From contig CM065815.1 in assembly GCA_033398695.1 (NCBI GenBank), positions 143,203,001 through 143,267,000 on the forward strand: DNA of 64,000 bases, written 5' to 3'. The first letter of the stretch is position 1. Every line of letters starts with the position of its first letter. The notes under the pieces are model-generated. The model had not been told where the DNA came from. It did not search any database and saw only the letters and a program-made list of their open reading frames with translations. A program made the position numbers and the translations under genes. Positions 5,469 to 59,332 of the stretch are shown here, piece by piece. This DNA is from Orobanche coerulescens. Its lineage: Eukaryota > Streptophyta > Magnoliopsida > Lamiales > Orobanchaceae.

Positions 5469-5684
5469 GTGCCGCGGCACATGCCGGCAGGGCCGCGGCA
5501 CACTGCCGAGTCAGTGCCGCGGCACATGCCGGAAGGGCCGCGGCACACTCGTATTGCATTGATCGGCCAAAAACGTCTGTACCGGGTGCCGCGGCACAGG
5601 CCGGCAGGACTGCGGCACACTGCCGACCACTGGGCGCGATTTTGGCCATGTGCCGCGGCACACTTCGGCTGAGCCGCGGCACAC
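5469..5684 (+). repeat. Array of paired CpG-rich palindromes in 5' LTR of A
   Basis: The perfect 12-bp palindrome GTGCCGCGGCAC occurs at 5469, 5514, 5586 and 5650. Each is followed by a variant whose core starts exactly 21 bp downstream: GCCGCGGC cores at 5471/5492, 5516/5537, 5588/5609 and 5652/5673. The 5609 core is degenerate. The spacers are not conserved. The array ends about 15 bp before a TATA-like site. The same four pairs with the same 21-bp spacing are in the 3' LTR. Confidence 0.9.
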
Positions 5685-5696
5685 AGGGCAGTCAAC

Positions 5697-5706
5697 CCCT
5701 ATAATT
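5697..5706 (+). promoter_or_regulatory. Weak TATA-like site of LTR A
   Basis: CCTATAATTG lies directly downstream of the palindrome array, at the position where elements C and D have clearer TATA boxes. It is a poor match to the plant TATA consensus. Confidence 0.35.
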
Positions 5707-7362
5707 GTGTTTTTGAGCGAGTTTCAGCTCATTTCTTCATTCCTTCACCTTCATGCGCGAGAGAGAGTCTTGAGAAAGTGATTTTTTTCTTCACCTATCA
5801 CTTGAGTGTGGATTTTAATCGTTTTCATTCGGTTGTGGAGCTCGGATCATCGATCTATCGCGTGTTCTTCGAATCATAGTGCTTGAATCTTCAAAGGTAA
5901 CTTTCATCAAACCTCTTGGATTTTCGATTTGTGTTGAGATATGATGTTTTGGATGTTAAGATCATGTTGTATGAAGTGATATACGCATGATTATGGATAT
6001 GTTCGATTATTCATTGGATTATTGAAGGATTATTCAAGAACACTTTGAATATTATGTTGGATTTGGGAATTTTCGATTAATTATTGTTGAAATCACGATT
6101 TTGGATATTCATAATGGATTATTGATCGTATTGGAGATATTTTGTGGTTTGAAACACTTCTTTGGGGATTAATGTTGGTATTATTGAAGTTTGGTTATAA
6201 ATAATCGAAGTTGGCCACAAAGTGCTCGATATAATGCCCCAATGAACTTGGTTTTATCGTATCAACGTTTTGAGTTCGTTATATTCGTGTTTGATTCGTG
6301 TATTGAACGGTTGTTGGTAATTATTGTTATTCAAGGTTGTTCGAGCGACCGGTATCTCGATTAGGACGTTGTTCGTGGAAGGACATTGTCTTCGGTATTG
6401 TGTAAGTTAATTCTTACTCGGTTAAAAGGATATTCATTCCTTTTGTTGTTGATCATTCATAATCATAACTCATTCATCATTGTATTAATCATATTGAGAC
6501 TTGTAATTGTCGAACAATCACTTCATTAACGAGGAACGGCGGTTCCAATCATTTCATTGAAACTATCAATCACTTCATTATTACTTTCATCTCGGTGAGT
6601 CATTCTTGACTTTGTCAGATTATTATTTATTCATTGATATTCATTGCGGTCATTCTCGTTCATATGACCTTCTGGGTTCATGTTGCGTGGTCGGGTGCGG
6701 ATGTGTGGAATTTTTAGTCGGGCACGTGATGGCCATGTATTGGGAGTAATACATTGGTCTGTGCACACGGTAAAGAGTAACTCCGTGAGACTAATTAGGT
6801 ACAAGGACGGGTGTGTCCAGTCATCCGTCTTGTACACTTGCACAGAACACTACGGGCGTACTATGATACTCCTCTTCAGCGTAATTCATAACTAAGGATA
6901 TTTCATAATTTCATATATATCATGTTTGTGTATTTTCAACCCTTGAGGATTGTTGTTCTGTGTAACTGACCCCGTTTGGGGATTTTGTTCTCAGGTCACG
7001 GCAAGGCAAAGGCACGGGAAGAGCATGTTGACGGCGACGAGTCCTAGTGATACTAGTAGGGGGCCCCAGTCATTCCGTTTATTTCAATCATGCTTATTTC
7101 TCTACAGTTGTATTTCCGCTGCAAATTCCGTTTGAAATGTTTATTTGTTCAGGGTGGTGTATTTTATCTCCATATAAAATATACTAGTATTCGGTATTGT
7201 CCTGGTGTGTTGTACTTAAACTCCTCATCGGAGTACTTGGTAATATAATGTGGTTCGGTACTACAATTATATTATTTAATTCATCATTTTCATTTGCCTG
7301 GTGGGTCCTAATCGGGGATTCATGGCACTGTAATATCCGCCTAGTTCTGAGTGTTACAGAGT

Positions 7363-7374
7363 TGGTATCGGAGC
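7363..7374 (+). other. Primer-binding site of element A
   Basis: TGGTATCGGAGC starts four bases after the LTR end. It matches the complement of the initiator tRNA-Met 3' end (TGGTATCAGAGC) with one change. This is the usual minus-strand primer of plant gypsy chromoviruses. Confidence 0.9.
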
Positions 7375-7855
7375 GTGGTTTTGAATACTACCTTCCGAGC
7401 CATGTCTCATTTGAAATCATCATCATCGGACTAGTATCATTGGACTTTCGCGTCACGTGTGACCTGTGCAAATGTCGAGCCAATCAGACCAAGAACTGTA
7501 AGATTTCTAACGCCATGGTATAATTTCTGGCAATAAGAATCATTCATTCATAATTCATCAGTTAGCAATCCTCAATCATCATTTTCATTTTGACCAGGAC
7601 GGTCATGTTAACTCATTAATCACTCAATTCATTTCATTACTCAGTTGTTGATCAGGAAGATCATATCATTAATCTTGTTAATTTGTTCAAGATAATCATT
7701 TCAATAATTTCATTAGATAATCATGTCACCTCAGTTAATCATTCATGTAATCACTGTGTTAGAGCGTGTATGCTCATTTTCATCATCTCATGTCATAATC
7801 ATAACGTGATATTCATGCGGGAAATATAATCATCATGTGACTTTCCTACTTCAGT
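7375..7855 (+). other. Untranslated leader of element A
   Basis: These 481 bases between primer site and gag are rich in ATTCATT/AATCATT runs and contain no supportable gene. They probably form the RNA leader with packaging signals, which is inferred from position only. Confidence 0.7.
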
Positions 7856-12572: not shown

Positions 12573-12588
12573 TTTCGGAGATGAAACT

Positions 12589-12604
12589 CTTTTAAGGGGG
12601 TGTA
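12589..12604 (+). other. Polypurine tract of element A
   Basis: TTTTAAGGGGG and the next four bases lie immediately upstream of the 3' LTR start at 12605. This is the usual site of plus-strand priming. Confidence 0.85.
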
Positions 12605-14861
12605 TGTAATACCCGGTTGTAATTCAGTCATTATCATTCAGTAATTTCATTCGGTGATTGTCACTCAGTGGATTTTCACTCATTAATAATCATTCATCAA
12701 TCATGTTCATTCATCCGTGTTCACCGTTCGTAATAACTTCGAGTTGTGTATCATTATTGTTCATTGTTTCAACTTTCCCCATATGAGTTCGACTTTATAA
12801 GATCACCATTAATTTTTGGACACTCCAAAAATTATGAATCTTTGCAATATTATAGAGTATCGAGTTAGCTTTCCAATGGTTCAAACGGTGAGTCAATCGG
12901 AGTCCGGACGAGAGAGTTATGGTCGAAATAGCTCAGGCACTCATTTTTCAGTTTTTGGCCGCGGCTGTGCAGGTGCCGCGGCACATGCCGGCTGGGCCGC
13001 GGCACACTGCCGGGTCAGTGCCGCGGCACATGCTGGAAGGGCCGCGGCACACTCGTATTGCATTGATCGGCCAAAACCGTCTGTACCGGGTGCCGCGGCA
13101 CAGGCCGACAAGGCCGCGACACACTGCCGACCACTGGGCGCAATTTTGGCCCTGTGCCGCGGCACACTTCGGCTGAGCCGCGGCACACAGGGCAGTCAAC
13201 CCCTATAATTGTGTTTTTGAGCGAGTTTCAGCTCATTTCTTCATTCCTTCACCTTCATACGCGAGAGAGAGTCTTGAGAAAGATATTTTTTCTTCACCTA
13301 TCACTTGAGTGTGGATTTTAATCGTTTTCATTCGGTTGTGGAGCTCGGATCATCGATCTATCGCGTGTTCTTCGAATCATAGTGCTTGAATCTTCAAAGG
13401 TAACTTTCATCAAACCTCTTGGATTTTCGATTTGTGTTGAGATATGATGTTTTGGATGTTAAGATCATGTTGTATGAAGTGATATACGCATGATTATGGA
13501 TATGTTCGATTATTCATTGGATTATTGAAGGATTATTCAAGAACACTTTGAATATTGTGTTGGATTTGGGGGTTTTCGATTAATTATTGTTGAAATCACG
13601 ATTTTGGATATTCATAATGGATTATTGATCGTATTGGAGATATTTTGTGGTTTGAAACACTTCTTTGGGGATTGATGTTGGTATTATTGAAGTTTGGTTA
13701 TAAACAATCGAAGTTGGCCACAAAGTGCTCGATATAATGCCCCAATGAACTTGGTTTTATCGTATCAACGTTTTGAGTTCGTTATATTCGTGTTTGATTC
13801 GTGTATTGAACGGTTGTTGGTAATTATTGTTATTCAAGGTTGTTCGAGCGACCGGTATCTCAATTAGGACGTTGTTCGTGGAAGGACATTGTTTTCGGTA
13901 TTGTGTAAGTTAATTCTTACTCGGTTAAAAGGATATTCATTCCTTTTGTTGTTGATCATTCATAATCATAACTCATTCATCATTGTATTAATCATATTGA
14001 GACTTGTAATTGTCGAACAATCACTTCATTAATGAGGAACGGCGGTTCCAATCATTTCATTGAAACTATCAATCACTTCATTATTACTTTCATCTCGGTG
14101 AGTCATTCTTGACTTTGTCAGATTATTATTTATTCATTGATATTCATTGCGGTCATTCTCGTTCATATGACCTTCTGGGTTCATATTGCGTGGTCGGGTG
14201 CGGATGTGTGGAATTTTTAGTCGGGCACGTGATGGCCATGTATTGGGAGTAATGCATTGGTCTATGCACACGGTAAAGAGTAACTCCGTGAGACTAATTA
14301 GGTACAAGGACGGGTGTGTCCGGTCATCCGTCTTGTACACTTGCACAGAACACTACGGGCGTACTATGATACTCCTCTTCAGCGTAATTCATAACTAAGG
14401 ATATTTCATAATTTAAAATATATCATGTTTGTGTATTTTCAACCCTTGATGATTGTTGTTCTGTGTAACTGACCCCGTTGGGGGATTTTGTTCTCAGGTC
14501 ACGGCAAGGCAAAGGCACGGGAAGAGCATGTTGACGGCGACGAGTCTCAGTGATACTAGTAGGGGGCCCCAGTCATTCCGTTTATTTCAGTCATGCTTAT
14601 TTCTCTACAGTTGTATTTCCGCTGCAAATTCCGTTTGAAATGTTTATTTGTTCAGGGTGGTGTATTTTATCTCCATATAAAATATACTAGTATTCGGCAT
14701 TGTCCTGGTGTGTTGTACTTAAACTCCTCATCGGAGTACTTGGTAATATAATGTGGTTCGGTACTACAATTATATTATTTAATTCATCATTTTCATTTGC
14801 CTGGTGGGTCCCAGTCGGGGATTCATGGCACTGTAATATCCGCCTAGTTTGGGGTGTTACA
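12605..14861 (+). repeat. 3' LTR of gypsy element A (2257 bp)
   Basis: It is near-identical by eye to 5097-7358, with scattered substitutions and a few short indels, mostly in the GC-rich array. It starts TGTAATACCC and ends GGTGTTACA, followed by the target duplication GAACT. The low divergence suggests a fairly recent insertion, although the coding region already carries several lesions. Confidence 0.95.
12973..13188 (+). repeat. Array of paired palindromes in 3' LTR of A
   Basis: GCCGCGGC-type cores start at 12975/12996, 13020/13041, 13092/13113 and 13156/13177. These are four pairs, each exactly 21 bp apart, matching the 5' LTR. Core 13113 is degenerate (GCCGCGAC). Flanking spacers differ slightly from the 5' copy. 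Confidence 0.9.
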
Positions 14862-14866
14862 GAACT

Positions 14867-16199: not shown

Positions 16200-16208
16200 C
16201 TATTTCTA

Positions 16209-23206: not shown

Positions 23207-23219
23207 CTAAAACATTTAT

Positions 23220-41836: not shown

Positions 41837-42137
41837 TGTAATACCCGAGATTTTCGTTCCGATTATTTCAAATTTTTTCGGATATTTCTCGATTGCCGAG
41901 TGTCGGTATTATTTTCTCTATGATTGATTTTGTGTTTATATGGTCTCGTGTGATTATTTGTTGCATGATGTTTTCATTTCGGATCGTTGGTGTTGTCCGC
42001 GAGCGTTTTGTCAAGTTCGTTCCGTGCGTTTTCGGAAATCGAGTTGCCGGGTCATAGCAGGACACCGGCCGGAAAGATGCGACAGGAACCGGAAGGGCGG
42101 CTGGGCACTGGCCGGACAGTTGCGGCAGGAACCGACA

Positions 42138-42444
42138 TAGCGCACGGTACTGTCGGAAGGCTGCGCATGCTACTCGGCAGGTATAGCGCGCGCTATTCGG
42201 CTGCCAGCGCACGCTACCTGGCCGAGCAGTCTGGTCCAGGAGGTTCTGGACGGGTCGGCTAGCTCACGCTAACGCTCGTCCAGCGCGCGCTATCTCGGCC
42301 GGGCATAATTCTCTGGACTGTCGGTGCCGATCACTAGCGCACGCTAGCGCAAGGCGTCTAGCGCACGAGGGCGGGCCCCGACCAAAAGTTCTAGGCTGAG
42401 ACTAGCCGATAGCCCGCGTTAATCTAGAAGCCTAGCGCACGCTA
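42138..42444 (+). repeat. Phased palindrome array in 5' LTR of C
   Basis: Ten copies of TAGCGCRCGCTA-type 12-mers start at 42138, 42161, 42184, 42205, 42260, 42281, 42335, 42359, 42410 and 42433. Neighbours within groups are 21-24 bp apart. The first members of the last four pairs (42184, 42260, 42335, 42410) repeat every 75-76 bp. The perfect palindrome TAGCGCGCGCTA occurs at 42184. Spacers are mostly unrelated. The array ends 12 bp before the TATA box. Confidence 0.9.
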
Positions 42445-42455
42445 TGGCGCGCCAG

Positions 42456-42463
42456 TATAAATA
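42456..42463 (+). promoter_or_regulatory. TATA box of 5' LTR C
   Basis: TATAAATA lies just downstream of the palindrome array, the probable core promoter of the element. The RNA start would be about 30 bp further on. Confidence 0.75.
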
Positions 42464-43472
42464 TGACTGAGCAGTCATATTTTCACCCATTTTTCATTTC
42501 GTTCCTTTCTCTTGCGGCTGGAGTCTTGGTGAGCATGGAGACATGTTGTCAAGCGATTAATCCACGAAGTTCTGGAGTTCCTATCATTGATTAATCGTTC
42601 CATAACCTTCTTTGATCGAGCGAATCAAGGTTAGATTTCCTAAAATCTTAGTTTTGGGAAAATTGGAGGTTTTGCTTGGTTTTGTCCGATTAGCCCGTAA
42701 TAACTTAGATTTGCGGCGGATCGATGATTATTAAGATATATTCTATCATTTCTCTTGTTGTTCCATGCTTGGATTGTCTAGGATTCATCGTTTCGTTGAG
42801 TTCCTAATCGACGCCTTGAAAGTGTTCGATTATGACGTCATAATTAATATTTTTCTACTGGAAATTAAATAGTTAACGGCATGGGGTATTTTGAAAAATG
42901 TTATCTTAGAAGGGGATTTGGGCGTTATGCGATTATTATTCCTCGTACGATCGTTGATTTATTGATGATATGTCTTAGGAACAAAATCCTTGTGAATAAT
43001 TCGAGTCGGAACCCATCCGTTCGTTGTCTTCTTCGGGGCCCAAGGTTTCCCAGTTGAACCATGTTCTTCGGAGTGTTCGGTAACAGTTATAGAGGCAAGT
43101 ATTCTACTTAGACGATTTGTGTCTTGTGTATAGAGCTTACGTATTGGATTTATCATGATTTGGTTTACCTTCGTGGCTATATTTCGTGCGAATTGAATAT
43201 TCGAACGGTTGTGAGTATTAATGATATTCTTGCTTGTTTAATATTGTGAAGTTGTGTTGGTCATGATAGTTGCGTGATCATGTTGGACTTGATTGCTCGG
43301 GTTTGATGTCTTGTGTTGATTATGATTATTGTGTTGGATTGACTATACATTTGGCCATGTATTTTGGTGTATGATTGGATGAACGTATTTGTATTAAGGT
43401 GTGCTATTCGTGGTGAAGTGTTTTGCGTTGTTTGATATGTGTTGGGAAGTGTGTGTGTGTGTGTGTGCCGTC

Positions 43473-43721
43473 CAGGTACGGTCCGTGTGGCCTCTGGAGT
43501 TCGGTATATGATGTGTACGAACAGCGTGTGTGGTCCAGGTACGGTCCATGTGGCCTCTGGAGTTCCGTACATGATGTGTACGAGCAGTGTATGTGGTCCA
43601 GGTACGATCCGTGTGGCCTCTGGAGTTCGGTACATGATGTGTACGAACAGTGAATGTGTTGAACCGGGTACGGTCCGTCGTGACCTCCAGATTTCGTTAC
43701 TTGACGAGTACGAACAGTGAT
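43473..43721 (+). repeat. 63-bp minisatellite in 5' LTR of C
   Basis: Four tandem units of about 63 bp each contain CCAGGTACGGTCCGTGTGGC or a variant, then CTCTGGAGTTCGGTACATGA and TGTACGAACAG. The last unit is the most diverged. A (GT)n run precedes it. The 3' LTR has the same four units. Open frames across it are repeat artefacts. Confidence 0.9.
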
Positions 43722-44464
43722 TGTGTGGATAATATTTTGATGTTAAATCTCGGACACGTTATGATATTTTCACTAATGTGTTTTGAAACAAAAACCGGGC
43801 TGAGACCTTGATGATTTTCGAAAGAGGTTTTGTAATTTTAGGACTCGAGGTCCAAAATAAACTATACTTTAAAAACTCCCGAGATACCGAATTTAATTTT
43901 TAGACACTTCATCACTTGTTTTATGATTAATAAAACCTCTCGGAAAATTTTGACAGTTGATTGTTTTACCTAAACCGTGATTGCATTCTGCTTGATACAT
44001 TTCGTATACTATTATACTTGCACTAGTAAAACAATGGAGTTTTACTAACCCCTGAGTAATTGGGGGGTGGATGTCTGTTTTGCGTCCAGGTACATGCTGG
44101 TTTGGGGGAGAAGTCACAGGATCGGCACAGGAAGTGGCGAGCTACGATACTAATCAATAGTTGAGACTTTGGTCGGGTAAGGTTGTGTCGACCGAGTTAT
44201 AGTCAGACTTCCGCTGTTGAGTATTTTTTCCTCTGCGTGGGTATTTATTGTAAAGAGTTATATTTTGTCTCGTTTGCATTTGTCGTGTGACCTCATCGGT
44301 CCGTGTGATTGTATTGTAATTAACCTTAATGGTCTGCATTATTGTAATGATTGACCTCGATCGGTCAAGTTTTTGGTATTTCTGTATTGTTTAGTCTGGT
44401 AAGTCCTCGTGGAGAGGGTCTACGGCATGTAATATTTCCATATGGTCTGGAGGTGTTACAGTTA

Positions 44465-44476: not shown

Positions 44477-46442
44477 TTCGGTTGCGAAAACCTAGGCTGT
44501 CGGGTCAAGTCGAGTCGTGGTTTATCGAGTAATATGATGTCATGTCATTCGAATTGCCGGGTGAGAAGTTGAGTTGTGCGTAGTCACAACATGTTGTATG
44601 TGTTGTCAGATGAGATTAGTATCGTGGGCGGCCGTCATCTCCGTGTGGCCTATGGACGTAAGTATCCTCTTTTATGCGAGGTATCTGTGTTTCATGATTT
44701 CATATATGTGCGATAATTGTGATGCATGATTTTGTTTGCATGGTGTTGTGAAATGGAATCCGTTTTGATTCTCGTGGTACATCACTTGTTTATTGAGCTG
44801 AATGTAATGATGGTTTGGGCACCGAGTGGTGCAATATATTGTGAAAGTTGTGAACCTTGATGTGATCCAGAGATTGTATCGACGGTAGAGTTCGTGATGA
44901 ACTTAGACGGATAATTCTGACGTATGTTTGAACTTGGTGTTCACGAGTCGTATTTGATTAAATTGGTAATCTCGTTTTCCGATTAGGCATGTGGTTTCAA
45001 GTTTGATTATTTTAATTATGTCCGATGTGTGAAGGTTTAAAACGGTTTTCTAAAAGATTTTATGAGCTTGAGTATGTTTGTAAAAGAATCGATTTTTGAA
45101 AATATTTCGATGGCGTGGATAAACAACGATTTTGTATGAATTTTGAAATCGGTTGAACTTTGACGAATAAGTCATGTATTTTCAAATGACTCCTTCAAAC
45201 GGTATCTGGAAAATGTGTTTTAAAATACTTCGGACATTGCAAACCGTTACCATCATTTTTTGTTATGATCGAAAGGATTTTTGGGAATTTTTTTTAATTT
45301 GCAAAACGACTTTGATTTTTTTTTCGAAACTTAAATCGTTAGGTGTTTGTGTGCTGGGAATATGTCGTTGCGACAAGTTTGTTATGTTGTTATGCTCGTT
45401 GGAAAATTTTGTAGTGTTTCTAAATGCCGGGATATATTGTTAGGATTCAAACCTTAAACTTCGGAGCCGTTTCAGGGCTGTTGGGACAATTCTGATGTCC
45501 TCCATACGACCGTAAGATGTTTACCATTACGGCCGTAAGCTCTTTGTTGTTACGGCCGTAAGTTCCTAGATGTTACGGCCGGGAAGTGCATGTTATTACG
45601 GCCGTCAGCTTGTGACTCTTACGACAGTAACTTTGTTGTTATAGTGATATCTGTGCTCTTTGTCGATCGTTTGATTCCATGGATATTATTGACGTGCTAT
45701 TAATTGTTACCTTTCTTGTTAGCGAATTCTGGTTGTACACTTAGGTGTTGTGACTGCGAGGTCTATTTTAATTGTATTATTCTATGATGTTATCCTGATG
45801 GGATAGTTGATCTGTGGTAATGATTAGTGCTAGTACAAGTGGTTCTCCACCCGGGGATGGTTTGGTGAAACCTATGGGGGTCGATGCTAAGGGGCATGAC
45901 CACGGATTTTCATATGCATTGTTATTCTCGATGGTGTGGCGTGGTAACATGTGGTTACCCTGCAGGTCATTTTGACGATATCGGTTATCGAGTAAATATG
46001 ATATTTCGAAACGTTGTTTTGCAAATGACTTCAAACGAAACAATTATGATAATGGAATCATGGTTTTGATTAAACGACCGAGGTATTAAAAGTATTTTTT
46101 TTTTCAAAAATTTCATTTTGGCAAAATCTTTTCAACTCAATAATTTTAAAATATTATCATGTGAACGAATACCTCAGAAAATTTTATTTTAAAGAATGTT
46201 ACAAATATTTGACCCCAATGATATGTATATGGTTTTGACAGTGTTTGTTTTGATAAAGGTCATACATTTCTATTTATGTGGTCATGGGGATTATTTATGG
46301 AATTAAGTTCTATTGTTGTAGTGAGTTCGTATATTCGTGTAATGACTCGGAGTGAATATTTTATTGGATTGTTTTTCATTGTCCTATGTTGATTCTGTGA
46401 TGTTTGTTTTGTTGTGTTATTCTGAATGGTTGTCCATTCAGT
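44477..46442 (+). other. Long untranslated leader of element C
   Basis: Almost 2 kb lie between primer site and gag, with no supportable gene and many stops in all frames. It contains the palindrome array at 45504-45630. Such a long leader is unusual for a gypsy element. Confidence 0.75.
45504..45630 (+). repeat. Six palindromes at exact 23-bp spacing in leader of C
   Basis: TTACGGCCGTAA or close variants start at 45504, 45527, 45550, 45573, 45596 and 45619, so every step is exactly 23 bp. The perfect palindrome occurs at 45527 and 45550. The 11-base spacers are unrelated to each other. The repeats lie between the primer site and gag. Confidence 0.93.
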
Positions 46443-47609
46443 ATGCCGAGAGGTCGAGGCCGATTACGTGGTCATGGTAGTGGTCGTAATAAGGAGCATG
46501 AGAGGGCGACTCATTCGTCGTCGAGTGCCAATCAGCTCAGTACAGATGGTCGAGATGACCAGTCGCGTGATCAGGGGAAATCAGCCAGAGGTAATGTTGA
46601 CGTTGATGCCGCCACCGTCCTTCGTCAGGTGGTTGATCAGTTGACACAGATGAATCAGATCGTGCACCGAGATGAGAACCCAGATGGGGATAATGGAGCT
46701 AGTAAATGGTTACGGGATGTGATGAGAATGTACCCACCCCATTTTGTAGGATCTTCGAACTCATTAGGTTGGGAGAACTGGCTCTTCCAGTTGGACAGAA
46801 CATTTGATGTTGTAGCTTGTCCCGATGAAAGGAGAGTACCTATTGCCCAATACATGCTCGACAAGGAAGCTGTAGACTGGTGGGAGGCCATAACGCCTAG
46901 TGATTGTGCAGCTACTTGGGCTGAATTCAAGACTGCCATGGAGGCCGGTATTGTCCGCCGCCTGTTAAAGAGCGTAGGATCATCGAATTCTTCTCGGCTA
47001 CACCCCAAGATGTGTTGATTATAATCGGGCAATAGTCGATTATAATCGGTAGTCGATTATGCGTATGATCAGGCAATAGTCGATTATAATCGGCAGTTAT
47101 GCTATGTTCGAGATCAAGTGAGAAGTGAGGCAGATAAGGTTCGTTATTTTGATATGCGTATGAAACCTCATGTTCGGCAGTGCATGGCCCCTTTTATGTG
47201 TACTACGTTGAAGGATTATCAAGACCAAGCTTTAGCTTTTGAAATGGTTGTATTGTCTACTGAGTCGGTATCTGTAGCAAATAAACAAAGGATTTTGGAT
47301 GATGCCTCGGGAAGTAAGGAAATTGGGATTTTAAAATCCCAAGCCTCTTATCAGATGAGTATGGGACCTTCTCGGTTAGCTAGAGAATCTAAAAGTCCCA
47401 GGTCGATGTCTTTGAGTCCAGACAGTGCTCCAAGATGTTTCAACTGTAATGTACTGGGCCACGAGCGTGCGAGTTGTAAGAAACCGCCGGTAACTTGTTA
47501 TAGTTGTGGACGCGGAGGGCATCGAGACCAGTACTGCGAGACCATTGCTAAGATGGTAGGGAACCGGAGTTTTGTTCATACTTCTGGAGGGCTCAGTGAT
47601 ACCCAGTGA
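46443..47609 (+). pseudogene. gypsy-type Gag of element C, broken
   Basis: It starts at ATG 46443 with an Arg/Gly-rich N-terminus (MPRGRGRLRGHGSGRNKE) like that of element A. The gag domain follows (PPHFVGSSNSLGWENWLFQLD, YMLDKEAVDWWEAITPSD). A one-base loss near 46950 shifts the frame. An AT-rich palindromic micro-repeat expansion at about 47010-47095 then interrupts the gene. The original frame resumes at about 47118 (SEADKVRYFDMRMKPHVRQ) and ends with two CCHC knuckles, CFNCNVLGHERASC and CYSCGRGGHRDQYC (47436-47537). The stop is at 47607-47609, and no protease follows. It was probably a self-encoded coat protein. Confidence 0.88.
47010..47095 (+). repeat. GATTATAATC micro-repeat expansion inside gag of C
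   Basis: The 10-bp palindrome GATTATAATC with flanking CGG and TAGTC pieces occurs at 47017, 47038 and 47082, with a partial copy at 47055. The first two are 21 bp apart. It introduces stops into gag and has no counterpart in the gag of A or D. Confidence 0.85.
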
Positions 47610-47656
47610 TGATATTTTGTGTTTGTAGTGCGGATGGTCTCCCGTGTGTAAACTTA

Positions 47657-48115: not shown

Positions 48116-50540
48116 TGTAATACCCGAGATTTTCATTGCGGTTATTTCGGATTTTTCCGGATATTTCTCGGTTGTCGAGTGTCGGTATTATTTTCTCTAT
48201 GATTGATTTTGTGTTTATATGGTCTCGTGTGATTATTTGTTGCATGATGTTTTGATTTAGGACCATTGATGTTGTCCGTGAGTGTTTTGTCGAGTTCATT
48301 TCGTGCGTTTTTTGGAAATCGAGTTGCCAGGTCATAGCGGTTGGACACCGGTCAAACAGTTGCGGCAGGAACCGGAAGGGACTGGCATAGCACGCGCTAC
48401 TGTCGGAAGGCTGCGCGCGCTACTCGACAGGCATAGCGCGCGGTATTCGGCTGTCAGCGCACGCTACCTGGCCGAGCAGTCTGGTTTAGGAGGTTCTGGA
48501 CGGGTCGGCTAGCGCATGCTAACGCCCGTCCAGCGCGCGCTATCTCGGTCGGGTAGAATTCTCTGGACTGTCGGTGTCGATCGCTAGCGCAAGGGGTCTA
48601 GCGCACGAGGGCGGGCCCCGACCAAAAGTTCTAGGCCGAGACTGGCCGATAGCGCGCGTTAATCCAGAAGCCTAGCGCACGCTATGGCGCGCCAGTATAA
48701 ATATAACTGGGCAGTCATATTTTCACCCGTTTTTCATTTCGTTCCTTTCCCTTCCGCGGCTGGAGTCTTGATGAGCATGGAGACATGTTTTCAAGCGATT
48801 AATCCACGAAGTTCTGGAGTTCTTAACATTGATTAATCGTTCCATAACCTCCTTTGATCGAGCGAATCAAGATTAGATTTCCTAAAATCTTAGTTTTGGA
48901 AAAATTGGGGGTTTTGCTTGGTTGTGTCCGATTAGCCTGTAATAACTTAGATTTGCGGGGGATCGATGATTATTAAGATATATTCTATCATTTCCCTTGT
49001 TGTTCCATGGTTAGATTGTCTAAGATTCTTCGTTCTGTTGAGTTCCTAATCGACGCCTTGAAGGTGTCCGATAAAAGATCTTAGAGGGGGATTCGGGCGT
49101 TATGTGATTATTATTCCTCGTACGATCGTTGATTTATTGATGATACGTCTTAGGAACGAAATCCTTGTGAAGAACTCGAGTCGAAACCCTTCCGTTTGTT
49201 GTCTTCTTCGGGGCCCGAGGTTTCTCGGTTGAACCGTGTTCTTCGGAGTGTTCGGTATCGGTTATTAAGGCAAGTATTCTACTTATACGATTTGTGTCTT
49301 GCATATAGATCTTACGTATTGGATTTATGATGATTTGGTTTACCTTCGTGGATATGTTTCGTGCGAATTGAATATTCGAACGGTTGTGAGTATTAATGAT
49401 ATTCTTGCTTGTTAATGTTGCGAAGTTGTGTTGGTCATGATAGTTGCGTGATTCGTGTTGGACTTGATTGCTCGGGTTTGATGTCTTGTGTTGATTATGA
49501 TTATTATGTTGGATTGACTATACACTTGTCCATGTATTTTCGTGTATGATTGGATGTTCAAACGTATTTGTATTAAGGTGTGCTATTCGTGGTGAAGTGT
49601 TTTGCGTTGTTCGATATGCGTTGGGAAGTGTGTGTGTGTGTGTGTGCGGTCTAGATACGGTCCGTGTGGCCTCTGGAGTTCGGTACATGATGTGTACGAA
49701 CAGCATGTGTGGTCCAGGTATGGTCTGTGTGGCCTCTGGAGTTCGGTACATGATGTGTACGAGCAGTGTATGTGGTCCAGGTACGGTCCGTATGGCCTCT
49801 GGAGTTCGATACATGATGAGTACGAACAGTGAATGTGTGGAACCGGGTACGGTCCATCGTGACCTCCGGAGTTTGTTACTTGACGAGTACGAACAGTGAT
49901 TGTGTGGATAATGTTTTGATGTTAAATCTCGGACACGTGATGATATTTTCACTAATGTGTTCTGAAACAAGAACCGGGCTGAGGCTTTGATGATTTTCAA
50001 AAGAGGTTTTGTAATTTTGGGACTCGAGGTCCAAAAGAAACTATACTTTAAAAACTCCCGAGATACCGAATTTAAATTTTAAACACTTCATCACTTGTTT
50101 TCTGATTAATAAAACCGCTCAGGAATATTTGGACAATTGATTGTTTTACCTGATTTGTGATTGCCTTCTGCTTGATACATTTCGTATACTATTATATTTG
50201 CCCTAGTAAAACAATGGAGTTTTACTAACCCCCGAGTAATCGGGGTGGATGTCTGTTTTGCGTCCAGGTACATGCTGGTTCGAGGTAGCAGTCACAGGAT
50301 CGGCACAGGAAGTGACGAGCTACGATACTAATCAAGAGTTATATTTCGTCTCGTTTGCATTTGTCGTGTGACCTCATCGGTCCGTGTGATTATATTGTAA
50401 TTGACCCTAATGGTCTGCATTATTGTAATGATTGGCTTAGGTCAGTCAAGTTTTGGTATTTCTGTGTTGTTTAGCCTGGTAGGTTATCGTGGAGAGGGTC
50501 TACAGCATGTAATATTCTCATATGGTCTGGGGGTGTTACA
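48116..50540 (+). repeat. 3' LTR of element C (2425 bp)
   Basis: It starts TGTAATACCCGAG and ends GGGGGTGTTACA. It is the clear partner of 41837-44460 with several indels. It includes the palindrome array (48388-48684), a TATA box (TATAAATA, 48696-48703), a (GT)n run near 49628 and the four-unit minisatellite at about 49650-49905. Confidence 0.94.
48388..48684 (+). repeat. Phased palindrome array in 3' LTR of C
   Basis: 12-mers start at 48388, 48411, 48434, 48455, 48510, 48531, 48585, 48599, 48650 and 48673, keeping the 21-23-bp steps of the 5' LTR. The 48585/48599 step is shortened by a 10-bp deletion relative to the 5' LTR. Several positions are perfect here but not there, and the reverse. 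Confidence 0.88.
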
Positions 50541-50545
50541 AAAAA

Positions 50546-50610
50546 TACACACTAAATTCCAAGTAAATATTTAGGTTCTCAATTTGTGGAGTTCTATTTT
50601 AGATCGATAT
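50546..50610. other. Short spacer between elements C and D
   Basis: AT-rich sequence resembles words near 41455-41500, so it is probably the continuation of the sequence that C entered. GATAT at 50606-50610 would be the target duplication of D; its other copy is outside the window. Confidence 0.5.
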
Positions 50611-52675
50611 TGTAACACCCCAAAAGGCGGCTATTACAGTGCCGTGGACCCCACACTGGGACCCACCAGGCGATATCCAAAACAGATTAAATAAATATTA
50701 TTTGTGATACCGAATCACAATGAATAGTCATTACTCCGATTAGGAGTTTATCAAAATATGGCCAACGACCTTATAATACACAGGATCCGAAAAACAAGTA
50801 TAAACCATATGGAGATGGAAAATACTTCAAATGTCAATACAACCAGATAGTAATTTAAATGAAGCAGAAAATAAAATAACATAACCGGACAACAAATGAT
50901 GTGGGCCCCCCGAAATAGTATCCTTCGAACCCTTCGCCGTCAACATGCTCTTCCCGTGCCTTGCCTTTGCCTCGACCTAAAATACAATACAAGTATTTCG
51001 CCCAAAACACAGGGTCAGATATACATGATAATTAATTCGTCCGACATTATACAATTCACGTATATAGATCTCAAGAAAATCATTCCGACTATTAATCATA
51101 CCCCTCGGGCATATGAAACAATCAGTCACAAACCGTCGAGCACATCCAATATTATGGATGATTAACAATATGGCTCAAGATGGACATCACAGTACGCCCG
51201 ATCTGGAAATGTGTCCGTGTACATGTCCGCCCCGTATACGGAATCCAGAATATACGTGGGACAATGTACCTAATTAGCCTCACGAAACTACGTCTCGTGT
51301 GCACAGTCCGATGCGGAATAATATCCACGCATGACTATATATGTGCCTGGCTAAAAATCCTACACACTGACCAATCAGAACGCAGATATGATTCCGGATA
51401 TGTCACGATACAACATGACAACGAATTCAATAAATCACATATCCGATTAAGGATCAAGAAAAACTCACCGAAGTGAAAATAAGACCAACGAGATCAGCGA
51501 TTCAAAGCGACGTACTTGGGAATGCAACCCCATGAAGAAAACGGAATAACGTCAAGGAAAATGTCAAATCACGACAAACATTACATGAACAATTCATACA
51601 TATGAAATATATAACCATCACAAGAATCTAATCATTATTATAACCAAGTAAGATAACTTGCCTCAATACGGAGACGAGAATAGTCCTCTCCTTGTCGGAA
51701 CGAACGAACGGTCCTCGATAAATATTGTTTACTCGAACAATCAACCTTAAACGAAATACATTTTAATCAATAACATATTCGTATAATTATCAATATAGGA
51801 TTAGTAAGACGTCATCCTACAATCCTTTAGAATAGTTTGCTATTTCCAATTATCGAAGCCTTATGTCAGGAGTTCTTTTAACATCATTACAACCATAAAA
51901 ATCAGTTTACAATACTTTTACCGAATGTTCACATGGTTCCTCATAAACAAGAATTCTATCAAGGGTATGTTGAATAACCAATTATGATGTTAAGATCATC
52001 TTATGATGATTAAACTTTCCAAAACATTAAAATGTTGAAAGAACAAAATCTGCACATTTATGATCATTCTCCTCTCATCTAAATTGAATATTAAGCTTAC
52101 AACAAGGTTATTAGTTATGAGATTACACCATATCCATGAAGGTTGTCAAAATCTTTCTTTACAAGGCTGGAAGATCCATTAACATCATGATGAATTCACC
52201 ATCTATCTAGTATGATGATCAAAACAAACTAAGTTCTCAACACATTAGATTAATGAAAAGTTGTTGTGTTGGTTTCACAAATATCCTTAACCATTCAAAA
52301 TATTGCTGAGCTAAACATAAGGAGAATATGATTCTTAAGAAATCTGAGTAAGAAGACATCCTTCTACTTCTAACATGGCCAAGTTCTTCCCAAGGTAAGT
52401 GAAAACTTAAAATGGTGTTTAATCACTTTATGATAACAACTCTATTAGTTAAATCCAACTACGGTGAAGTTAACTGATTCAAGGGTATTCTACTGAGCTA
52501 AATTCATCCAACAAGATGAGCATGATAGTTACAACGTGGTTAGAATCACTATATCATCAAGAACACATCCATCTCAAACCCTCATTTATCATATTCATCA
52601 AAAGTGTTAAAAAGGTTGGATTAAAACTATGTTTTACTTGATTAATCTACTCTAGGTGAAGTATAATTCGTTAAT
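50611..52675 (-). repeat. 3' LTR of element D, distal part
   Basis: In gene orientation this is the end of the LTR, finishing TTTTGGGGTGTTACA at 50611. It is A-rich on the plus strand, with no gene. It includes the first copy of the LINE target duplication at about 52660-52675. Confidence 0.88.
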
Positions 52676-52860
52676 GATTTTTCGCTGAGCACTCTCTCTC
52701 TCTAGAACGCTCTGCCTTCTCTCTACCCTGGCGATTTTTTTTCCTCGGTCACCCCGTCTTCCTCTTCATTCATTGTGACCGTTAGCAGATATTTTATAGC
52801 CGTTCACGGCGCTTCTTCTCCCCCGCCGCCGCCTCAGTGCGGCAGACCTTTCCTTTTTCG

Positions 52861-54518
52861 ATGGCCACTCCATCGGTTCAGCGATCCCAACCATCATCCC
52901 CAACAAAACAGCCCGACTTTGAGAACCTGACTCTCAAATCGAGTGCTAACCTTCTCAATAATCTTACGACAAATTTTATTAACTTTGGAAAAAAAACTCA
53001 CAGCCCACCGATTCTCTCTTCTAGAATCAAGTCGGCGTCCCAAAATACCAAGATTCACACGAAAGCGGCGGAAATCCCAAATCCAGGAAACCCTAGATCT
53101 GATGAAGAAGAAGGGGAAATAATAGAAACCCCCACCGTAGATGGAAAGATCCGTGAAGATGATGCTGAAATCATTCCGGAAACGCAACCGATACCAAAGG
53201 GTCCATCAACATCCAAAGCTACATATGCTGGAATCACCAAAGGGCCAGCAGGGAGCGACCAAAAGTTGGGCTCGATTGATAAAACTGGTGACATTCCAAA
53301 AGCTGTCTTCACAATCCCAGAGTGCGAACAAGCTTCGGCACCACTCAAATTTGCCCTAGTCGGTAAATTCTCCTATGGTAAGCCCAACAACGAGGTAATC
53401 GGCTCAACCCTATCTAAAATGGGATTTCCTTACTGCAAAATTCAATATTTGAATGGGAGGCATGTTTTGATAACGGTGGCAAATGAGGAGTTGTTCAACA
53501 AACTCAGACTCCACCGTGAAATTTCTGTTAATCAATTTCCTATGCGTATTCTTAAATGGACACCAGATTTTAGTTTTAAAAAAGAACTACCTGTGGTACC
53601 TGTGTGGATTAAAATTATTAATCTTCCCCTTCAGTGGTATGACATGAGATGTTTACAAACTATTGCTAGCTGTATTGGTGATTTTATCAAAGTTGATGAT
53701 GCTACCTTATCCATATCTCGGCTGAATTATGCTAGAGTCTGTGTAGATGTTAATTTGTTGAATCCCCTCCCCCTAAAGTGGCTATTGAATGTGGTGATAC
53801 CTCTATGGATTGCTTGATTGATTATGAAAGAAAACCCATGTATTGTGCTCACTGTGAACACATTGGACATGATGAGAAAATGTGTTACATTAAAAACAAG
53901 GAGCTCAGGCCCCAGGCATTAGAAAAGAGACAACAAATCATTTCTAAACTGGATTTCTAAAAAAATTTGTCAAATAAACAGGCTGTGGATAAGGGGAAAC
54001 AGGATCTTAATCCCAATGAGATTCCTGTTACCCCTGTTGATCCACAAAATAAAGAGATGGAGGGAGAGCAGACTATCATCCTTGATAGCCCTGTGAATCC
54101 CTCTAAATTTTCTTTAATTCTATCACCCCCTGCAAAAATATGGAATAAGTCAGGGACTGGTCCAGTCCTTACCTCTCTGATAGAGGTAAACCATGATGCA
54201 TCTTTCTCTAACCAACCCTCAAAGGGAGAGGATGATCACCCTGGTTCCCCTATCCTAGTAGAAATTCATTCAGAGGAGGATGATGATCCTACCCCCCTCA
54301 GGAACTCCTTCAGTCCTCTTCTATTAGATGAGGACAATGAATGTGATTCATCCCCCAACAATAGCAGCCCTGAGTCTGATCAGGTTCCTAGCTCTACTCA
54401 GGTTACTGTGCTGGCTCTTAGGGTTCGTAACCCTATATCTAAAGAAATGGAAACTAACCAGAAGAACAAGGAAGATTTGAGAAGAAGTGGTAGGCTAGCA
54501 CCCAAATCCTCAAAATGA
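52861..54518 (+). pseudogene. L1 ORF1: RNA-binding protein with DUF4283-like domain and zinc knuckle, broken
   Basis: The start is ATG 52861 (MATPSVQRS). The middle part (FALVGKFSYGKPNNEVIGSTLSKMG, then PVVPVWIKIINLPLQWYD) is the DUF4283-like region typical of plant L1 ORF1. A frameshift near 53770-53800 leads into the knuckle CAHCEHIGHDEKMC at about 53836-53883. An in-frame TAA at 53958-53960 beside an A-run breaks it again. The tail is acidic and Ser-rich and ends KSSK with TGA at 54516-54518. ORF1 coats LINE RNA. Its stop overlaps the ORF2 start as ATGA. Confidence 0.9.
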
Positions 54519-57500
54519 TCAATACTATGATTTGGAATATTAGAGGTATGGGTAATCCAGCAGCCCAAAAAGTTTTAAAAAGTTTAATTCATGACAACAA
54601 AATTAATATTTTGGGCATTATTGAGCCTAAAGTTGACCTAAACCTTCAATTTTTCTGTAGACTTCTTGGCTTTCACTCTGTTATTGCCAATGTGAGCAAC
54701 CATATTTGGATTTTCAATGATATAAACAACCATGTCCAGATTTTACATAATACAGCTCACATGCTTCATGTGAAAATCACATCATCCTTAACTTCTAAGC
54801 CCTTTTTATTCACTGTGGTCTATGGTAAGAATACCAGAGTTGAAAGATTTCAACTTTGGGATGACTTACTTAGTGTAAGTCAGCACAATATACCCTGGAT
54901 GATTGGGGGTGATTTTAATATTGTTCTGAGAAACTCTGAAAAGAAAGGTGGGGCTCCCCCTATCCAATCAGAGATGGATGACTTCTCTGATGCCATTATG
55001 GACTGTAATCTTTTTGAGGGTGGTTTTTCTGGTAGCCCTTTTACTTGGTATAGTGACTCTATCTGGCAGAGGCTGGATAGGATTCTGTTCAACTCTGATT
55101 GGTGTGATCTTTTTCCTTCTCCCTCCATCTTACATCTCCCCAGATATACTTCTGATCATCATCCCCTATTATGTAATTTCTCTGATGTTTCTGTGAAAAT
55201 TAAGCCTTTTTCAGATTCCAAAACATGTGGACCAAACACCATCTTTTCATGCAAATTGTTAAGGAATCTTGGTCTATTCCTACCTCCATCAGAGGTATCC
55301 ATAGGCTTCCTTTGAAACTGAATAGATTGAAATTCACCCTTAAAGACTGGAACAGAAATCAATTTGGTAATCTTTTCAATAATATTGCTAATGCTAAAGA
55401 GCAGGCTGCTACAGCTGAGCTCAATTTTGATAATGACCCTTCCCCCTCCAATTATGTCAACCTTAAAAATGAGAAAGCTAATCTGAATAAAATTCTTTCC
55501 ATGGAAGAAGACTTTTGGAAACAAAAAGCCAATATCAAATGGACTCTTGAAGGTGAGAGAAACACTAAATTTTTCCATAATTTGGTTAAAATTAAAAGAA
55601 GCAAGGGTAGTATAGGACAGATTACCTGCAATGGTATTCCTGTTTCTGATCCTTGCCTTATAGCACAATCTGCTACTGATTACTTCTCTGGCTTATTTAC
55701 TGATAATAACCCTCTTCTGGATAACATTGATGAGGACATCATCCCAAAATCATTTCTGACAATGATAATGACATGCTTTGTGCTATCCCAGACTTAAATG
55801 AGGTTAAAGTGGCTGTTTTTAATATGAACTCTAATGGGGTGGCTGGCCCTGATGGATTTAATGCTTTTTTCTTTCAAACTTGTTGGGATATTATCTCTGA
55901 GGATGTTCTTGAAGCTACTACTGATTTTTTTAGAGGAGCCCCCCTTACCAAGTCTTATACTTCCACCACCTTAACTTTAATTCCCAAAACTGATTCTCCA
56001 TCTTCCTGGAAGGATTTCAGACCCATCAGCTTTTGCAACAATATTCAAAAGATCTTTTCTAAAATCATGGGGCTAAGATTGAGCAAGCTTCTTTCTAAAC
56101 TTATTTCCCCTTTCCAGTCTGGTTTCATTAAGAATAGAATCATCACTGATAATATTTTGGCTGCCCAGGAGATTGCTCATGATATCTCTAGAAGCCCCGA
56201 TAACCTTATTGTTAAATTGGATATGGAAAAAGCTTATGACATGTTGAATTGGAACTTTCTTTATCAGGTTCTTTCTGGTTTTGGATTTGCCAAGGTTTGG
56301 ATTGATTTAATCAAAAACAACATTTCAAATTGCTGGTTTTCTATTCTGATTAATGGATCTCCTGTTGGTTATTTTAAATCCCAAAGAGGCATTAGACAAG
56401 GAGACCCTCTTTCTCCCATGCTTTTTGTTTTAGCTGCTGATTATCTTTCTAGGAGCCTGGATAATACTTTCATAAAAAAATCCTGATATGTTTTTCACTA
56501 TCAGGAAAAAAGTTGATGTTAATGTTTCCCATATAGCTTTTGCTGATGATGTCCTTATTTTCCTTAAAGCCAATAGAAACAACATCATGCCTCTGAAAAA
56601 TTGTTTGCATAAATATGAAGATCTTTCTGGGCAACTGATCAACACTCATAAGAGCCAGTTTATTCTTCATAACCCTAATGCTATCCTGAAAGATCTTATC
56701 CTCTCATGTACTGGTTTTAAGCCCACTGCCCTACCCATATCTTATCTAGGTGCCCTTCTCTGGAAGGGGAATCAAACTTTTGATATGTTTTGAAATCTTA
56801 TTTCTAAAATTCAAAACAAAATTCAAAGTTGGAATCACTTTTATTTGACTACAGGGGGGAGAATGGAACTTATTAAAACTTCTCTAAATTCCATGTCATT
56901 TTATGTGCTTCAAGTTCTTAGACCTCCTAACAATGTGATTATTCACTTAGAGAGGTTGTTTAATAGATTTCTATGGGGGTCTAGGGAGAATAAGAAAAAA
57001 TTGCACTGGTGTTCCTGGAACCGTTTGTGTTTTCCCTTTTAGGAGGGAGGTTTGGGTTTTAGAAACCTTAATGATATCATTAAGGCTGCTGAAATCAAAT
57101 TGTGGTGGCGGTTCAGGACCAATTCCAATATTTGGTCTAATTTTCTCAAAGCTAAATATTGTAAACGGCTTCATCCTAAAATCATTAAAACTAATTCTTA
57201 TGATTCCACTATTTGGAAAAGAATGTGTGAGATTAGGAACCAGGCCGAGGACTGGATTTTTTAAGGGATTGGCAACGGGGAGATCTCTTTCTGGCATGAT
57301 AATTGGTGCTCTCTCAACCCCCCTTCTCAATTTGACCTTGGCACGAAATCTAATTTGTTGATTAATAATGTTGGAATGACAATGGTTGGGATGTTTTTAA
57401 GTTGCAGGCCTTGATTCCGAATGAATTGTGTGACCTCATATGTGTTCTCCCCACCCACGACCATGAATGCATTCCCTTTTGGAAATTAAGTTCTAATGGC

Positions 57501-58585
57501 AACTTCACCTTCAAGTCTGCATGGCAGGCCATCAGGAAGTCCCAAAACTCTTCTACTATTTTATCCAAAATCTGGAATAGTGTGATTACCCCTACTATTT
57601 CTCTATTCATTGTTCGGCTATTGCATAATTGGATCCCTGATGGTCTTCGTAACAGGGGTATCAATGTTTCTAACGATGGATGTTTTTGTTGTCAGGGCAC
57701 AGAGGACAGTTCTCACTTATTTTTCAAAGGCCCGGTTGCTAAGTCCGTTTGGGCTAATTTTTCTTTTTTAGCTGGAATTGAACTTCTTAATTTAGAAAGT
57801 GTTGGCATGGTTTTATCTAATTGGTTTAACAAAGGTTATGGCTCTTGCCACATTTTTTATATCATTCCGGTCCTTATTTTGTGGTTTTTGTGGTGTTCCA
57901 GGAATGACAAACGTGTCAAAAATATTCCCTTTACTGCCCAGCGGGTCATCAACCGGGTTTGGAAGTACCTAGCCACTATCAAAAAGGTTGACAATATTAA
58001 TTGGAAAGGCGCCCCAATTTTTTGCGATCTTTTGGGGATTTTTTGTTGTAATATTAGAAAACCCCCCAATTTTTTTTTGGTTTCATGGATTAAACCCTCC
58101 CCTGGTATTATAAAATTGAACACTGATGGGGCCTCTAAAGGCAATCCGGGGCGAGGCGGGGGAGGTGGCCGTGACCACTTGGGTCATCCCATTTTTGCTT
58201 TTCATGAGTATCTTGGGCATCAAACTAACACATTCGCCGAAGCATACGCGGTTTGGAGGGGTCTTGAATTTTGTCATGACAGGAACATCCGGAAAGTTTG
58301 GGTCGAACTAGACTCCCAAATTGTTCTTCATTTAATTTCCACAAAAATTAAAGGACCGCGGCATACCAATCACATTTTCCAACGCATCCATTCTCTTATT
58401 AACTTGATGGATGTTAGGCTTACGCACATCTACCGGGAGGGGAACGTTGTTGCGGATTACTTGGCCAATAAAGGGTGCGAGAAGTGCAATTTTGAAATGT
58501 ATAATGTTTGTAATATTGGGGGGCTTTTACGGGGCTATCTTAGGCTCGATAGACTTGGTGTACCGTATATTAGATCTAGATAACG
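54515..58585 (+). pseudogene. L1 ORF2: endonuclease, reverse transcriptase, RNase H, broken
   Basis: It starts MINTMIWNIRGMGNP at 54515. The apurinic-type endonuclease shows IIEPK, GGDFNIVL, RLDRIL and SDHHPLL up to about 55170. RT has [18 protein letters not shown] and catalytic FADD at 56539-56550. A zinc-binding-type region (CFCCQGTEDSSHLFF) lies near 57680. The C-terminal RNase H has NTDGASKGNPG (Asp at 58125), FAEAYAVWRGLE, ELDSQI and HIYREGNVVADYLAN. Frame changes near 55225-55300, 55780, 56486 and 57380, and stops at 56791, about 57040 and 57262, make it dead. The RNase H end is a feature of many plant L1 elements. Confidence 0.92.
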
Positions 58586-58974
58586 CATTTTTGATGCCAA
58601 TGAGTCTTATTTTCGGCCGATGAGGTAGCTTCCGTGTAGGTGGGTCGGCTCCACCATTTTTTTCTTCCAGATATATATGTGATCTTTTTTCAAAAAAAAA
58701 AAAAAGTATAATTCGTTAATAACGTCAACATATGAAAATAATACAGAGAGGAAAGTACACCTACCTCCAGAAATGAAGAACAACCTCAAAGCTATGAGAA
58801 AATATACTCCAAGCTCAAGAACACCTCCTGGTCTCCAAGGAAATGAGCTCCACTCCAAGATTTAAGGCTTAGAAGCAAGTTGGGGGAGGTTGATATCGGT
58901 TTGGGAGTGCAGAGGGACGATATATGGAGAGAGAATCGGTTTGGAGTTGTGAAGAAATGAAAAACAGGCTGGTC

Positions 58975-58984
58975 CTATAAATAG
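58975..58984 (-). promoter_or_regulatory. TATA box of LTR D
   Basis: CTATTTATAG on the minus strand lies about 12 bp downstream, in gene orientation, of the last palindrome. It is a good plant TATA candidate. Confidence 0.65.
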
Positions 58985-58996
58985 ACTGTACAGACT

Positions 58997-59332
58997 TAGC
59001 GCACGCTAACGGGAAGCTTTAGTGTACGCTAACACACTTACGTGCGCTAATTGGTTAATATTACGTACGTAAGCGGCTTACAGTGGCTACTGTCTTGAAT
59101 TCGCAGGTCGCTAGCGCACGCTAATGAAAAAGGGGTTTCGCACGCTAATAAAAGTTGACTCTGGCCGACATGACAGCTCAGACCTTACTCACATGCATGC
59201 CAACGGCTAAGGAGTTCACGTGCTGAAGTCAACTGATGCCAGATTCCCTCTTAGCGTACGCCACAGAGGAAACATTACGCATGCTAAGGCACAGGATTAG
59301 CGTACGTTAATCATACTATGTAGCGTACGCTA
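58997..59332 (-). repeat. Phased palindrome array in LTR D
   Basis: Variants of TAGCGTACGCTA start on the plus strand at 59252, about 59275, 59298 and 59321 (exact 23-bp steps; perfect palindrome at 59321). Another pair lies at 58997 and 59020 (23 bp). Further copies end at 59049 and 59072 (23 bp apart), and others end at 59123 and 59147 (24 bp). TTACGTACGTAA at 59061 is a perfect palindrome. Spacers are unrelated. Confidence 0.9.

Follow-up and report, generated by a model that had tools for sequence, protein, structure and literature searches.

This report concerns arrays of short palindromic or near-palindromic sites in the long terminal repeats (LTRs) of four retrotransposons, elements A to D, in a stretch of Orobanche coerulescens DNA (contig CM065815.1, positions 143,203,001 to 143,267,000; 64,000 nucleotides, referred to below as the window). 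The window is flowering-plant DNA with many transposons. A preliminary description of it had proposed that phased 12-bp, CpG-rich palindromes, with cores that differ from element to element, lie just upstream of a TATA-like site in these LTRs.

Elements and palindrome arrays in the window

Element A, whose target-site duplication (TSD) is GAACT, has matches to gag, RVT_1, RT_RNaseH and SH3_Tf2-1, the last three above the cut-off; rve (17.3 bits, cut-off 32.6) and Chromo (18.3 bits, cut-off 25.1) fell below it. Since it combines a reverse transcriptase (RT), RNase H and SH3_Tf2-1 with a sub-threshold chromodomain, element A is most likely a Ty3/gypsy chromovirus of the Tekay/Del type. The protein matches listed (at least 120) were 50–74% identical over parts of the query; those among them that carry names are plant proteins, and at least one (P0108) has a Chromo domain. 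No relatives of the element A RT were found in the viral contigs searched. After the LTR of A, B and C comes a primer-binding site of the TGGTATC[A/G]GAGC type, which we take to be the tRNA-Met type. Priming by tRNA-Met is given for most chromoviruses in the available part of PMC6317226.

The Ty3/gypsy domain set is present in A and D, which are 73.8% identical across 4451 bp of their internal part. The internal region of B is short and holds no open reading frame (ORF) of at least 200 amino acids, and that of C is short as well; B and C align in the 3′ part of the LTR at 75% over 149 bp and 78% over 68 bp. By backbone, the elements pair as A with D and B with C. By site they pair as A with B and C with D, the words falling into three classes: class 1, GCCGCGGCAC (A and B); class 2, TAGCGYRCGCTA (the LTRs of C and D); and class 3, TTACGGCCGTAA (the leader of C). 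Cores that are all different, as had been claimed, were therefore not what we found. The D array also holds TTACGTACGTAA beside the class 2 word. A module of the unique 3′ region (U3) is common to A and B (Table 1), and beyond it just 34 bp of the array aligns between their LTRs (E 1e-3).

Table 1. Features of elements A to D in the window (positions count from the first nucleotide of the window)
Feature	Positions	Strand	Remarks
Element A 5′ LTR	5097–7358	+	Ty3/gypsy chromovirus, most likely Tekay-like; LTR pair 97.5% identical; from ends and TSD
Element A 3′ LTR	12605–14861	+	
152-bp U3 module of A	5277–5428	+	92.8% identical to B module; just upstream of array
A array	5469–5682	+	8 sites of the GTGCCGCGGCAC type; gaps 21, 24, 21, 51, 21, 43, 21
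A array, 3′ LTR copy	12973–13186	+	same array as in 5′ LTR
Element B 3′ LTR	24596–27054	−	
Element B 5′ LTR	29833–32302	−	from LTR comparison and ends
152-bp module, B 5′ LTR	31970–32121	−	3′ LTR copy at 26722–26873
B degenerate cluster	31859–31929	−	3 sites of the CGCGGCAC type; no higher than shuffles
Element C 5′ LTR	41837–44460	+	TSD AAAAA
C array, 5′ LTR	42138–42444	+	about 10 copies of TAGCGYRCGCTA
C leader array	45504–45630	+	6 copies of TTACGGCCGTAA, exactly 23 bp apart
AT-rich palindrome repeat, C internal region	47016–47092	+	CGATTATAATCG type, 3 copies
Element C 3′ LTR	48116–50540	+	
C array, 3′ LTR	48388–48684	+	
Element D 3′ LTR	50611–59525	−	interrupted by a long interspersed nuclear element (LINE; about 52.7–58.7 kb, extent from ORFs and sequence)
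D array	58997–59332	−	about 10 copies of TAGCGTRCGCTA or TTACGTACGTAA

The arrays begin at LTR position 373 in A, 302 in C and 194 in D. Perfect 12-bp palindromes were located in A (5469, 5514, 5586 and 5650, and in the 3′ LTR 12973, 13018, 13090 and 13154), in D (59061 and 59321) and in the C leader (45527 and 45550), in agreement with the preliminary description; most C copies are imperfect, with a single perfect palindrome in the 5′ LTR (42184), and in this respect the description did not stand. Element B has none in its 5′ LTR and one in its 3′ LTR (26652). Four GC-containing words, allowed up to 2 mismatches, were confined within the window to the arrays of A to D. The arrays had also been called CpG-rich. 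This is correct for the GC content of the A, B and C arrays (0.63–0.70) and not for D (0.48) or the leader (0.47), and the observed/expected CpG ratios of the arrays (A 1.02, B 1.12, C 1.17, D 1.26, leader 1.38) are near those of the rest of the A, B and C LTRs (1.10–1.29). Between the two LTRs of one element, CpG transitions did not differ consistently inside and outside the array (C, p 0.10; A, p 0.28).

We compared the perfect 12-mers in U3 with 1000 dinucleotide shuffles. The 5′ LTR of A has four, against a shuffle mean of 0.17, a count that no shuffle reached; D has two, against a mean of 0.18 (reached by 9 of 1000). The single perfect palindrome in the 5′ LTR of C is within chance, being reached by 213 of 1000 shuffles. 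We also looked for the 12-mer that recurs most often, with symmetry not required; this unsupervised search covered stretches chosen around the arrays, each of which was shuffled 60 times. The real sequence beat all 60 shuffles in both LTRs of A, both LTRs of C, D and the C leader, and the majority words of the A, C, D and leader arrays pair at 5 or 6 of 6 positions. The preliminary description was thus confirmed in part: arrays stood out from chance in A, C, D and the C leader and not in B, where the cluster is degenerate and the repeat score equals the highest among the shuffles (15 against 15 in each LTR).

When the whole window was scanned in 425 segments of 304 bp, 27 reached the threshold score of 29. 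Sixteen of these were AT-rich, some of them near-palindromic, and were excluded from the counts. Among the other 11, five pair at 5 or more of 6 positions, all of them in the A, C and C leader arrays, and six do not; the D array, at about 340 bp, fell below threshold in the 304-bp grid. Neighbouring sites lie 21–24 bp apart in 22 of 30 gaps, compared with at most 12 in 20,000 random placements. Identity was 0.66–0.90 in the 12-bp cores and 0.24–0.44 in the 10-bp flanks on either side. For the spacing and identity figures the copies were chosen at up to 3–4 mismatches, which inflates core identity, and we therefore place weight on the near-chance flanks and the shuffle controls. Because the cores are alike, the flanks near chance and the gaps clustered at 21–24 bp, the conserved unit is the site together with the distance rather than the spacer. 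Chance was rejected as the origin of the arrays.

Other features of the window were seen beside the arrays. The AT-rich CGATTATAATCG-type repeat is at the end of a 205-amino-acid frame with a weak gag match. The LTRs of C carry 63-bp tandem repeats, about 4 copies, 3′ of TATA (43461–43728 and 49643–49907). The LINE inside the D LTR contains pieces of DUF4283, endonuclease, RT and RNase H (52786–58580). Between B and C, a 1.1-kb inverted repeat (33489–34593) is 80.7% identical to its own reverse complement and holds 30-bp tandem repeats and the palindrome ACTTTTAAAAGT; it looks like a foldback or terminal-inverted-repeat element.

Occurrence across the genome and exchange between backbones

We counted exact pairs of the same word 5–35 bp apart in the genome from which the window comes (3,646,015,169 bases), the sole genome-wide control being the pattern read backwards. 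Class 2, counted as TAGCGCACGCTA, gave 334,161 pairs (167,758 and 166,403 on the two strands; fewer than 0.001 expected by chance), class 3 (TTACGGCCGTAA) gave 62,965 and class 1 (GTGCCGCGGCAC) gave 18,864. The backward-read patterns gave 0 pairs for all three classes. Each class has its own preferred spacing among the first places listed, on contig C1: 23–24 bp for class 2 (69 of 100), 22–23 bp for class 3 (30 of 50) and 21 bp for class 1 (28 of 50). An array held about 2.9 pairs on average over the first 2.6 Mb of C1, from which a rough extrapolation puts class 2 alone at about 110,000 arrays.

Individual loci were sampled by taking the 8 kb that follow each of 20 RT hits, which were the top 20 by score of the roughly 480-bp kind among 150 scored; longer, higher-ranked hits were excluded as probably LINE-type. 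Drawn in this way from top-scoring hits, the sample is small and non-random. With a strict detector, palindromic arrays showed up in nine of the 20 loci (24 of 1040 overlapping windows) and in 0 of 1040 shuffled windows; loci L038 and L039, with four class 2 sites each, are under its threshold. In the 15 arrays from the nine loci the cores are 0.74–0.93 identical and the flanks 0.24–0.43, and of their 140 gaps 91 are 21–24 bp, 3 are 25–42 bp and 27 are 43–55 bp. Nine of 11 arrays were of a single class and two were mixed. In a further sample, the 30 best matches of the A U3 (the two LTRs in the window included), all were class 1, as a query that favours this class would give; they have 7 to 10 sites. 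The preliminary description had named two outcomes that would speak against it, no enrichment over shuffled sequence and arrays limited to single copies; in the 20 loci and the genome-wide pair counts, we found enrichment and many copies.

The distance from the last site to the TATA box was read in class 1 and class 2 arrays. TATAAT begins 17 bp past the last site in A, and 18 bp past it in a class 1 array at L022. In class 2, TATAAA begins 11 bp past the last site in the 5′ LTR of C and the TATA-like box TATTTATA begins 13 bp past it in D. Seven of ten class 2 arrays have a TATA-like box (5′ LTR of C, D, L021, two in L029, L034 and L039), and in all seven it begins 11–13 bp past the last site, with a chance of about 0.003 per array. 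The 11–13 bp in between differ in sequence.

Two loci combine parts of different elements. The first LTR of L029 (2992–5625, element orientation) matches A at LTR positions 1–110 (78.6%) and 632–2262 (86.5%, 1641 aligned bp), and the U3 of A in between, 111–631, is replaced by a 22-copy class 3 TTACGGCCGTAA array. The second LTR of this locus has an A-like start at 5833 (82.9%; 72% to A 937–1959) and carries an 18-copy class 2 array with cores 93% identical and flanks 27–29%. At L039, the LTR matches B at 1–189, 1103–1282 and 1826–2470 (82–88%), identifying a B backbone, and in between it matches C at 105–467 and 535–855 (69–71%) with class 2 sites, a C-like U3. These matches support an exchange of U3 cassettes between LTR backbones. 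They also bear out the earlier idea that the architecture is kept while the palindrome changes, even on one backbone (first LTR of L029 compared with A of the window).

Two observations concern the same loci. Class 2 sites at L029 6063–6626 (element orientation) come mostly in fours at 21–24 bp, with 54–74 bp between groups; the linkers have a GTACTGG-like word in common by eye, a possible second conserved element. The 152-bp module of A and B recurs at 83% in L025 (4789–4920, element orientation), where the strict detector saw no palindromic array.

Plant-like chromovirus RT is also encoded by five contigs, L003 to L007, that are filed under bacterial genomes (Mycobacterium, Streptomyces, Geminicoccus, Solirubrobacter and Labilibacter) and are probably contamination. 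None of the four array words tested occurs in them. Chromovirus LTRs in L003 and L005 resemble those described here in having a repeat array before a TATA-like site, and differ in that the units, 63 and 51 bp, are non-palindromic (2 of 6 pairs). In L006, one window is rich in repeats, and its majority word is near-palindromic (5 of 6 pairs). In the L007 LTR the near-palindrome ACTTACGCAAGT occurs in 5 near-exact copies spaced 18–19 bp apart; as its flanks are partly alike (43–56%), this repeat may be plain duplication. A motif-pair pattern occurred in two stretches of viral contigs, which we took as chance matches.

Interpretation of the arrays

We consider it probable that the arrays are promoter-proximal clusters of U3 binding sites that drive transcription and are exchanged as U3 cassettes between LTR backbones. 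Clustered dyad-like 12-bp sites, about two helical turns apart, would most likely be bound by a host DNA-binding protein beside the TATA box, and the bound sites would serve an enhancer function in transcription of the element. Duplication of one- or two-site units would create new sites, after which the spacers would drift and the sites would be kept. The whole cassette, array and TATA region together, would then move between backbones, probably via template switching during reverse transcription, with the result that sites can differ between related elements and agree between less related ones. For sites two turns apart, in register with TATA and alike despite spacer drift, the best reading, we infer, is a cluster near the promoter to which a host protein would bind, and among the options in the preliminary description binding-site turnover is the one that fits best. 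The cores of NAC, CAMTA, SBP and BZR gave no single fit to the array words, and a literature search did not point to a factor either.

Several observations weigh against this interpretation. Changes within arrays were not compensatory beyond shuffles, and the dyads are not fully symmetric: TAGCGCACGCTA, the form that was counted, pairs at 5 of 6 positions. In A, conservation is complete in the right arm and lower in the left (1.00 vs 0.80), the opposite of C, D and the leader, where the left arm is the better conserved. Of 34 repeat-rich windows in the sampled loci, 10 are non-palindromic. Among 29 A-type copies, variability outside CpG was 0.054 in cores and 0.080 in spacers (p 0.054), at CpG it was 0.074 and 0.081 (p 0.29), and the cores vary more than the rest of U3 (0.044). 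The TATA pattern, including TATTTATA for D, was fixed after the distances had been inspected. Three of the ten class 2 arrays are without TATA: one in L021, one at L038, where the locus ends about 40 bp past the array, and one at L033, where orientation is undefined. For five of the 15 sampled arrays, no TATA-like site lies 90 bp or less from either end. Class 2 cassettes are moreover alike 3′ of TATA, with GGACA in four of seven and near forms in three; the register may therefore be inherited, common descent of the core promoter being possible. Finally, the exchange evidence consists of the two loci L029 and L039.

Other explanations account for parts of these data. The arrays might act mainly as RNA, copies from the 3′ end pairing into hairpins that are cut to small RNAs and attract silencing, with the pattern persisting as a by-product of what the promoter requires or as a signature recognised by the host. 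RNA folds of all six arrays do beat the 60-shuffle average (z −2.3 to −5.6), and 110-nucleotide windows below −40 kcal/mol overlap the array in 10 of 10 cases in A (108 windows), 12 of 12 in the 5′ LTR of C (126) and 2 of 3 in B (119). The available parts of PMC10760457 and PMC5311732 likewise describe maize Sirevirus palindromes as small-RNA hot spots. Nevertheless, D has no such window among 36, and hairpins need neither a fixed distance to TATA nor phasing at 21–24 bp, and we regard this explanation as unlikely; RNA hairpins and small-RNA targeting may instead follow from a binding-site cluster. We give similarly little credence to neutral tandem duplication, the expansion of an ordinary functionless unit in which the palindrome is incidental. 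It would account for the alternation of two site forms in the A array, for the longer A-type copies, most of which have gained one 45-bp unit (21 + 24), and for the non-palindromic repeats before TATA in L003 and L005; spacer identity is higher (up to 0.44) in the leader, A, L024 and L036. Against it, spacers are near chance and cores alike in C, in D and in most of the arrays sampled (15 in all), and each of three different words is a palindrome or close to one. Pure tandem duplication was rejected.

That GC-rich palindromes are signals for RNA dimerisation or packaging (dimer linkage sites) would suit the additional palindromes in the C leader and not the LTR arrays of A, C and D, which are in U3, 5′ of TATA; we judge it very improbable. 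Still harder to credit is the replication-linked process of the preliminary description, which would make palindromes at two-turn spacing. The regular spacing is all that it explains; it predicts neither one word across families, nor mostly single-class arrays, nor the TATA register; we saw nothing in its favour and rejected it.

The reading as exchanged binding-site clusters can be carried further, to a version that we hold tentatively and think may well be wrong. The Ty3 chromoviruses of this plant would use a genome-wide, modular promoter code with a small set of dyad-like 12-bp sites as its letters (TWRCGNNCGYWA fits three of the four words), arranged in arrays of mostly a single class, with spacing and TATA distance specific to each class. 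By swapping whole U3 cassettes, families would repeatedly switch the host factor that reads them or escape a host repressor, an arms race played out as array turnover. If binding-site clusters are what the arrays represent, hundreds of thousands of identical 12-bp sites, often TATA-phased in the arrays checked, are spread through one plant genome, providing a large pool of ready promoter-proximal sites and a heavy sink for the protein that reads them. Retrotransposon families would change promoter class by cassette exchange, and escape from host control or its recruitment would become testable.

Comparison with known systems

In Ty1/copia elements of the Tnt1/Tto1 type, short U3 repeats serve as activator sites. 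The arrays described here are like these in being short U3 repeats, and differ in that Tnt1 and Tto1 have few copies and are not Ty3 elements. The accessible part of PMC2829016 mentions box I of Tnt1, as well as arrays with two or three repeats.

In the open PubMed Central papers searched, palindrome arrays were not described for Ty3 elements, which does not exclude a description elsewhere, and the two papers there that matched the exact array words are unrelated by title. The portions seen of PMC10760457 and PMC5311732 tell of clustered palindromes in the cis-region of the LTR together with small-RNA mapping, and in the former maize Ty3/RLG elements are generally without an obvious structure peak.

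The preliminary description knew of no comparable system, and here it was mistaken. The Sirevirus repeated motifs (RM boxes; Bousios et al. 2010, PMC2829016), as far as the available text of that paper goes, are palindromic, number 8–32 per element with 3–14 in the 3′ LTR, and mostly begin 200–400 bp into the LTR, upstream of TATA, with extra internal copies in some elements; their word varies by family and their flanks have diverged. Since Sireviruses have multi-copy palindromes upstream of TATA with family-specific words, the layout itself is not new. It is matched by A (8 copies), C and D (about 10 each), and not by B, with palindromic repeats of at least 8 copies in the upper half of the LTR, upstream of TATA. 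In contrast to the Ty1/copia Sireviruses, the present elements are Ty3/gypsy chromoviruses, and the CGG-CCG signature of Sireviruses is matched by the C leader word TTACGGCCGTAA only; GCCGCGGC and GCGYRCGC differ from it, most being CG..CG words. Helical spacing, a fixed TATA register and exchange of arrays on one backbone are features seen here that we did not find described for Sireviruses in the text available of PMC2829016. Four features had no counterpart that we could find in the open PubMed Central papers searched: the setting in Ty3 chromoviruses, spacing specific to each class, the TATA register and class change on the same backbone. If our interpretation is correct, the layout published for Ty1/copia Sireviruses extends to Ty3 chromoviruses.

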